Notes under the pieces: model-generated
The model's database searches: none
Seen by the model: the letters and a program-made list of their open reading frames with translations, nothing else
What the model was told of the DNA's origin: nothing
In this document: positions 21,261 through 22,605 of the stretch, piece after piece
How positions within the stretch are numbered: the stretch's first letter is position 1
How the letters are laid out: each line of letters starts with the position of its first letter
Made by a program: the position numbers and the translations under genes
NCBI GenBank assembly: GCA_019232665.1
Contig: JAFANN010000247.1
Location: 1-36,505, forward strand
Direction: 5' to 3'
Length of the DNA: 36,505 nt
From: Caulobacteraceae bacterium
GTDB taxonomy: Bacteria > Pseudomonadota > Alphaproteobacteria > Caulobacterales > Caulobacteraceae

Positions 21261-21335
21261 GTCTGCCCCTCCTTCGGGCGATGAAACGGAATTGTCCGCC
21301 GGTGGCGATACGGCGGGATGATATCGAAAATACCG

Positions 21336-21359
21336 CGGGCGTTCCCGAAGGAACGCCCG
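21336..21359 (-). terminator. cUUCGg-capped hairpin in decarboxylase / DHS-like spacer (attenuator or mRNA-processing element)
   Basis: Plus strand cgggcgttcc-cgaa-ggaacgcccg, perfect 10-bp stem; minus-strand RNA reads CGGGCGUUCC UUCG GGAACGCCCG followed by CGGUAUUUUCGAU. Confidence 0.65.
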
Positions 21360-21363
21360 AAGC

Positions 21364-22605
21364 TCAGCGGCGACGGCGGCGGCGGCCCTTCGACCGCGGC
21401 AACCTGACGACGGAGTCCGCCTCGGGCTTCACAGTCGGAATCGAGCGGGGCGCCAGGCCGTACATGGAGCCCATCGGCGCATCCCCAACCTCCACGGTTT
21501 CGAGATCTCCAAACCCATTGAAGCGCGTGGTCATTGCGACGCCGTAGGCGCCGAGCATGCCGATCTCGATGAAGTCGCCCTCCTGGACGTCCTCCGGAAG
21601 ACGGAAAGGACCAGGCATATGATCCAGGGAGTCGCAGGTGGGTCCGTAGAACTGAAAACCGCGCAGCGGAGCGCTCGATGGCTCTCCGGGGCGGATCAGC
21701 TTGGCAGGAAAGGGCCACTTGGCGTGGGCGGCGTCGAACAGCGAGCCGTAGGCCCCGTCATTCAGATAGAGGGCGTCGCCCTTACGGAGTTCCACACGGG
21801 TCAGGAGCGACGTGCCCTCCGCCACGAGCGCACGACCAGGCTCGCACCAGAGCTCGGTGGTTTCGTGCACCATCATGTCGGAGAACCCGCGATCGATAGC
21901 CGCGAGGTATTCATCCAGGTCCGGTGGGGCCATGCCCGGGTAGACCGACGGGAAGCCTCCGCCGACGTCAACGACGTCCGCGAGCACGCCGGCGCGCACC
22001 AGCGCCCGCGAGGCCTGCGCCATCGCCGCCTGGAAGGCGGAGGGGCGCATGCACTGGCTGCCGACGTGAAAGCTCACGCCCATGATTTCCTGGGTCGAGC
22101 GACGGGCCGCCAAAAGAAGGTCGGGCGCGTCGGCGGTCGAAACGCCGAACTTTCCCGCCAGAGCGTAAGCCGCCCCGGGCGCCTCGACAGCCAGGCGGAC
22201 GATGAGTTCGAGATCGCTGGCGCCGCCAGTGACGTCGAGGATCTTCGCCAGCTCGGCTTCGCTGTCGATGGCGAACGTCCGGACACCGTAGTCGGAATAG
22301 GCGGAGGCGATCGCCTGCCTGCTCTTGACGGGGTGCATGAAGGCCATGCGCGCGTCGGGCGCGTGCGCACGCACGAGCTCGATTTCCGGAATGGAGGCCA
22401 CGTCGAAACGACGCACGCCGCCGCGCTGGAGCTCACGGATGACCCACGGCGAAGGGTTCGCCTTCACCGCATAAAAGACGTCACCCTTGAAGTTTTGGCT
22501 GAACCAGCGTGCCGCTAGCTCGACGGCGCCCGGTCGCACGAGTGCGACAGGACGTTCCGGCGACCGCTCACGGACCAGGTCCAGGGGCGAATGGTACGTG
22601 TGCAA
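21364..22605 (-). CDS. Type III PLP-dependent ornithine/lysine decarboxylase (alanine racemase fold)
   Basis: 'DVFYAVKANPSPWVIREL' (PLP Lys), 'HVGSQC', 'VDVGGGFPSVYPG', 'CEPGRALVA', 'FYGPTCDSLDHMPGPF'. Confidence 0.93.
   Translation of the reverse strand: MHTYHSPLDLVRERSPERPVALVRPGAVELAARWFSQNFKGDVFYAVKANPSPWVIRELQRGGVRRFDVASIPEIELVRAHAPDARMAFMHPVKSRQAIASAYSDYGVRTFAIDSEAELAKILDVTGGASDLELIVRLAVEAPGAAYALAGKFGVSTADAPDLLLAARRSTQEIMGVSFHVGSQCMRPSAFQAAMAQASRALVRAGVLADVVDVGGGFPSVYPGMAPPDLDEYLAAIDRGFSDMMVHETTELWCEPGRALVAEGTSLLTRVELRKGDALYLNDGAYGSLFDAAHAKWPFPAKLIRPGEPSSAPLRGFQFYGPTCDSLDHMPGPFRLPEDVQEGDFIEIGMLGAYGVAMTTRFNGFGDLETVEVGDAPMGSMYGLAPRSIPTVKPEADSVVRLPRSKGRRRRRR

Follow-up and report, generated by a model that had tools for sequence, protein, structure and literature searches.

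Does the short spacer between a decarboxylase gene and a deoxyhypusine-synthase-like (DHS-like) gene carry an RNA that controls the second of the two? The question was raised by a 36,505-nucleotide stretch of DNA from a Caulobacteraceae bacterium (assembly GCA_019232665.1, contig JAFANN010000247.1), called the window here, in which a decarboxylase reading frame ends in a run of arginine codons and is followed at once by a hairpin with a UUCG loop. The original prediction had joined these two elements into a polyamine-sensitive switch controlling the DHS-like gene. The comparison covered the locus in related genomes and 80 additional public contigs. At a probability of about 70%, the results are read jointly as a lineage-specific hairpin in the window and, in the corresponding spacer of the family, a conserved pseudoknot leader of the DHS-like gene.

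Genes and features of the window

The features of the locus are collected in Table 1. Lysine and ornithine decarboxylases were the nearest solved structures for the decarboxylase. The DHS-like protein scored 561 bits against NF002699 (cut-off 500), for which the NCBIfam name is 1,9-bis(guanidino)-5-aza-nonane synthase. The decarboxylase terminus, RSKGRRRRRR-stop, was confirmed from the minus-strand sequence and its translation, the arginine codons (21384-21367) reading CGC CGC CGC CGT CGC CGC before a TGA at 21366-21364. The perfect 10-bp UUCG stem was likewise found as described, 4 nt past the stop codon and ahead of the DHS-like gene; the stop is followed by GCTT and then by CGGGCGTTCC-TTCG-GGAACGCCCG (21359-21336, minus strand).

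Table 1. Features of the decarboxylase/DHS-like locus in window coordinates.
Feature	Position	Strand	Basis or remark
PLP-dependent ornithine/lysine/arginine-type decarboxylase gene, TTG start, 413 aa	21364..22605	-	Pfam PF02784/PF00278
Six C-terminal Arg codons of the decarboxylase, within the conserved basic tail	21367..21384	-	translation
Perfect 10-bp UUCG-loop hairpin, in this genome only among those read	21336..21359	-	
103-nt decarboxylase/DHS-like spacer; site of the probable pseudoknot leader in most Caulobacteraceae, leader absent here	21261..21363	-	
CTTCGGGCG, 9/9 complementary to the strand beside the ribosome site	21354..21362	-	seen post hoc, one genome
CGCCCGAAG, partner strand of CTTCGGGCG, overlapping the ribosome site AGGAGG (21273-21268)	21272..21280	-	
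DHS-like gene, 358 aa	20184..21260	-	Pfam PF01916, E 4.6e-87; NF002699

The UUCG hairpin and the basic tail

The hairpin has a folding energy of -19.0 kcal/mol and lies 75 nt upstream of the DHS-like gene. A 192-kb portion of this genome contained about six distinct perfect stems reaching 10 bp or more around loops of 3-8 nt, or about one per 30 kb; with overlapping registers counted, 11 such stems were observed against 2-9 in random Markov versions, so that the hairpin is unusual and its length alone not clearly beyond chance. Its exact 20-nt core, with up to two mismatches allowed, occurred once in the 3.83-Mb genome. As in an intrinsic terminator, a stable G+C-rich stem-loop stands past the stop codon. 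The T-run is weak, the 8 nt past the stem including 4 T and the run beginning 4-5 nt late (CGGTATTTTC), and a reading as a terminator is uncertain for that reason. In a background drawn from 316 kb of the 3.83-Mb genome, only 7 of 547 hairpins had at least 5 T in the following 8 nt.

The hairpin was found in none of the relatives read, including those whose DHS-like proteins are 86-91% identical, and was rejected as a genus-conserved element. The comparison with relatives that had been proposed as a check on the switch therefore fails for the hairpin, and the arginine codons are not conserved as such; what is kept of the tail is only its basic Lys/Arg character. Of 79 distinct decarboxylase tails of Caulobacteraceae, 76 had five or more Lys or Arg residues among their last 10, and at least six consecutive arginines were seen in two (the window and one other). 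Lys and Arg codons substitute for one another, which points to selection on the protein and not on the Arg codons; a conserved stalling device made of Arg codons was rejected because these are not conserved. The basic tail was present whether the spacer measured 5, 18, 100 or about 2,000 nt. A Lys/Arg-rich decarboxylase C-terminus (21367-21393 in the window) is conserved across Caulobacteraceae and Maricaulis-like genomes.

The window hairpin is thus an ordinary, genome-specific hairpin adjoining a conserved basic protein tail. Among the genomes compared it shows no conserved pairing-up with the Arg run, and it is most likely a lineage-specific stabiliser of the upstream mRNA end or a weak, leaky terminator.

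A conserved leader in the Caulobacteraceae

The spacers of many relatives share one block, consisting of a stem, GUCGCUCCGUCC and then GACGGGCG. Genomes were searched for the exact pattern GTCGCTCCGTCC-N8-38-GACGGGCG, with the reversed pattern as a control. Of 299 family genomes, 224 carried the pattern, almost always as a single copy, and the reversed controls gave 0 matches; the family of the pattern-bearing genomes was identified as Caulobacteraceae from the titles of the matching records. Two matches each were found in three genomes of one genus, with copies near contig ends in two of them. At all 30 loci fetched by the pattern alone, the start codon of the DHS-like gene followed 23-29 nt downstream on the same strand, which is the fixed position before one gene expected of a cis-regulatory leader. 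One example is found in Caulobacter vibrioides (locus L129).

The element lay anywhere between tens of bases and about 2,000 from the decarboxylase gene. In one Asticcacaulis genome (G029) about 1.6 kb, including a gene on the opposite strand, separates the decarboxylase gene from the element and the DHS-like gene that follow. This separation, the variable distance to the decarboxylase and the fixed distance to the start codon identify the element as the leader of the DHS-like gene and not as the tail of the decarboxylase gene. No promoter was seen at a fixed place before the stem. Elsewhere in Asticcacaulis (L056 and L057), two copies of the element lie about 320 nt apart; the first precedes a short reading frame (MRKHSPDFSFRADI) and a SEC-C-like fragment, and the second precedes the DHS-like gene.

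Only weak matches were obtained outside the Caulobacteraceae among 289 genomes across the alphaproteobacterial class. The exact pattern was missing from the window genome, and a covariance model run with filters off found no element, even a diverged one, in the window spacer. A weak model match of 24.5 bits elsewhere in the window genome (G000:C285) was taken as chance. Exact copies were present in 2 of the 16 genomes searched from the genus of the window (G007 and G010); the others had unrelated spacers or almost no spacer. The window hairpin therefore occupies the spacer in which most of the family carries the element, and the element, tied to a single gene and lost across most of this genus, is not essential. 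The expectation of an RNA structure in the spacer before the DHS-like gene was borne out for the family, which conserves one there; the structure is a different one from that predicted, a probable pseudoknot leader, and is absent from the window.

Structure of the leader

The leader consists of a stem, P1, with a 10-nt loop (UCGCUCCGUC), followed by the strand GACGGGCG. The CGC and CCGUC of the loop are complementary to the GCG and GACGG of the downstream strand, with one bulged base. P1 was counted on 56 distinct Caulobacteraceae sequences, the two leader types described in this work being counted apart. Double-sided changes were found at 11 of 11 pairs (177 cells, against 67.5 in shuffled alignments, with 0 of 500 shuffles reaching the observed value), and sliding the partner strand of P1 destroyed the signal. 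The element thus has the covarying secondary structure of a cis-regulatory leader. In 8 of 85 distinct copies the pair closing the P1 loop is A-U in place of G-C; the first and last loop bases are paired.

The predicted pseudoknot pairs were retained in 99.8% of cells and are near-invariant within the family, with only G-U changes. Because they hardly vary, the pseudoknot is without covariation inside the Caulobacteraceae, and it is supported by this invariance and by the leader type of a sister family. Plain secondary-structure prediction often paired the GACGGGCG strand elsewhere. The distance from block to block varied from 8 to 22 nt. The stretch from the strand to the start codon folded better than shuffled sequence, with a mean z of -0.97 (63 tails) and of -1.85 for the sister type (12 tails), and folding often placed the ribosome site of the DHS-like gene in a small hairpin.

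Leaders in sister families

A related type was found in 22 of 200 genomes of the order, in the family designated f3. Its loop (GGCG..GCGUC) and strand (GACGC-CGCC) are complementary throughout, GCGUC with GACGC and GGCG with CGCC, and it has its own covarying P1. From their common layout, this type and that of the Caulobacteraceae are inferred to be homologous. If they are, the sister type provides compensatory evidence for the pseudoknot.

Other conserved leaders were seen before the DHS-like gene. In the family designated f5 (Parvularcula-like) the leader has the form ACGGCCCUCCGCG-stem-CGCGGCCCGGAUCCGG, with GAAAGGACCG at the ribosome site. Among 200 genomes of the order, 10 have it, in one copy each; 5 of its 14 predicted pairs covary, and the copies tested had no Rfam match (loci L174, L176, L178, L187, L189-L191, L199, L215, L042 and L142; alignment A3). 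Part of family f3 (Aquidulcibacter/Phycosocius-like) has another conserved block, GGAGUUCCGGCGC..CGCUGGCC (L164-L166, L168, L169, L171, L214, L216 and L217; alignment A4), and in family f2 there is a possible further type, CUGGACCC ... CGUUAnAACGC ... GGAGUCCC (L202-L206 and L208). The occurrence of apparently unrelated conserved DHS-like leaders in sister families suggests that control at the leader level arose more than once.

Two unrelated kinds of element were encountered in passing. The spacers of L011, L013, L025 and L031 hold palindromic intergenic repeats, CTCATCCC..GGGATGAGCGG, which are probably a mobile repeat family. A TPP riboswitch scoring above the gathering score lies near this locus in one relative (L024:202-309, minus strand).

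Interpretation

P1, the invariant complementary strands, their location, the near-single copy number in each genome and the association with a single gene can be taken as established at the level of sequence. On these features the family element is probably an undescribed cis-regulatory RNA, a gene-control element before the gene of a polyamine enzyme. P1 would present its 10-nt loop, from which CGC and CCGUC would pair with GACGGGCG as an H-type pseudoknot. The start codon of the DHS-like gene follows about 25 nt past the pseudoknot, its ribosome site often in a small predicted hairpin, and formation or melting of the pseudoknot nearby could switch translation of the DHS-like gene. The signal may be feedback by a polyamine or guanidino-polyamine, bound directly, as in a riboswitch, or through a protein; a signal from this pathway is guessed because the element is tied to the DHS-like gene alone. 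It is tentatively proposed, at rather less than even odds, that the Caulobacteraceae leader and its sister version form a new riboswitch class for a polyamine or guanidino-polyamine (homospermidine, agmatine or the bis-guanidino product) exerting feedback on the DHS-like enzyme. The other leader types that precede this gene in related families may have a like role.

Two further accounts of the conserved element are each somewhat less probable than the riboswitch. The element could be a binding site for a protein, such as the DHS-like enzyme or, by way of its basic tail, the decarboxylase, which would repress translation without any riboswitch. Association with a single gene is typical of such autogenous control and the adjoining enzyme carries a conserved basic tail; that tail, however, is also found in Maricaulis-like genomes, which have next to no spacer, and in genomes lacking the element, and a compact, near-invariant pseudoknot is typical of small-molecule aptamers too. 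To the same degree unlikely is a constitutive, signal-free knot acting on translation or stability, which would protect the downstream message or set the ratio of the two enzymes. Most genomes have the element between genes of an operon and show no consistent promoter ahead of it, which fits this account, but the near-invariance of loop and strand implies more than a protecting stem, and the distance to the decarboxylase gene varies widely.

The switch as originally conceived, in which slowing of ribosomes on the Arg codons changes how the UUCG hairpin folds and thereby makes DHS-like expression responsive to polyamines, or in a variant the 5' arm pairs alternatively with the ribosome-site strand, is now very improbable. 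The window does contain both the Arg run and the hairpin, and the 9-nt pairing of the 5' flank with that strand, reached in 49 of 5000 shuffled tails, gives a competing fold just 2.1 kcal/mol less stable. This pairing was noticed post hoc in a single genome, however, and is given little weight on that account; moreover, no relative has the hairpin, and the Arg codons as such are not conserved. Still less credible, and largely excluded, is a DNA operator with two half-sites in place of an RNA. GTCGC-T-CCGTC and GACGG-GCG do make an imperfect inverted repeat, but the spacing of the blocks varies (8 to 22 nt), P1 covaries at every pair, and the element keeps a fixed distance to the start codon and not to a promoter.

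Under the preferred joint reading, a compact and highly conserved pseudoknot leader for one polyamine enzyme, in a genetically tractable family, is a directly testable candidate. Should it bind a polyamine, it would reveal how Caulobacteraceae adjust their polyamine supply; with a protein as its partner, it would be an unusual autoregulatory site. On its own, the window hairpin would matter little.

Comparison with known RNAs

The window hairpin resembles intrinsic terminators and UUCG-capped intergenic hairpins in its stable G+C-rich UUCG stem just past a stop codon, and differs from intrinsic terminators in its weak, late T-run. The leaders matched no Rfam 15 family when searched with covariance models at lax E-values (SAM-II, speF, guanidine-III and others), and no published description of the element was found in the open-access literature.

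The guanidine-III riboswitch (ykkC-III, RF01763) is a compact, G+C-rich pseudoknot. Its guanidino chemistry may link to agmatine-type substrates, and the resemblance is a lead only, the element having no match to this family at E up to 5. The speF leader (RF00518) is, like the element, an alphaproteobacterial RNA before a polyamine gene, and bound no ligand among those tested (PMC1273637). It is long and precedes the decarboxylase itself, whereas the family element precedes the DHS-like gene and does not match it in Rfam. Convincing riboswitches for polyamines are scarce, with one spermidine class reported in 2023 and more classes expected by its authors (PMC10853860). That polyamine-sensing class is a variant of the SAM-I architecture (PMC10853860), and the leaders gave no match of this type. 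From SAM-II (SAM_alpha, RF00521) the element differs in sequence, in the lack of an Rfam match and in its gene (polyamine versus methionine). Like SAM-II and other small H-type pseudoknot riboswitches, it is made of one stem and, as predicted here, a pseudoknot in less than 70 nt and, as with SAM-II, it is an alphaproteobacterial leader near the start of a metabolic gene (PMC1273637).
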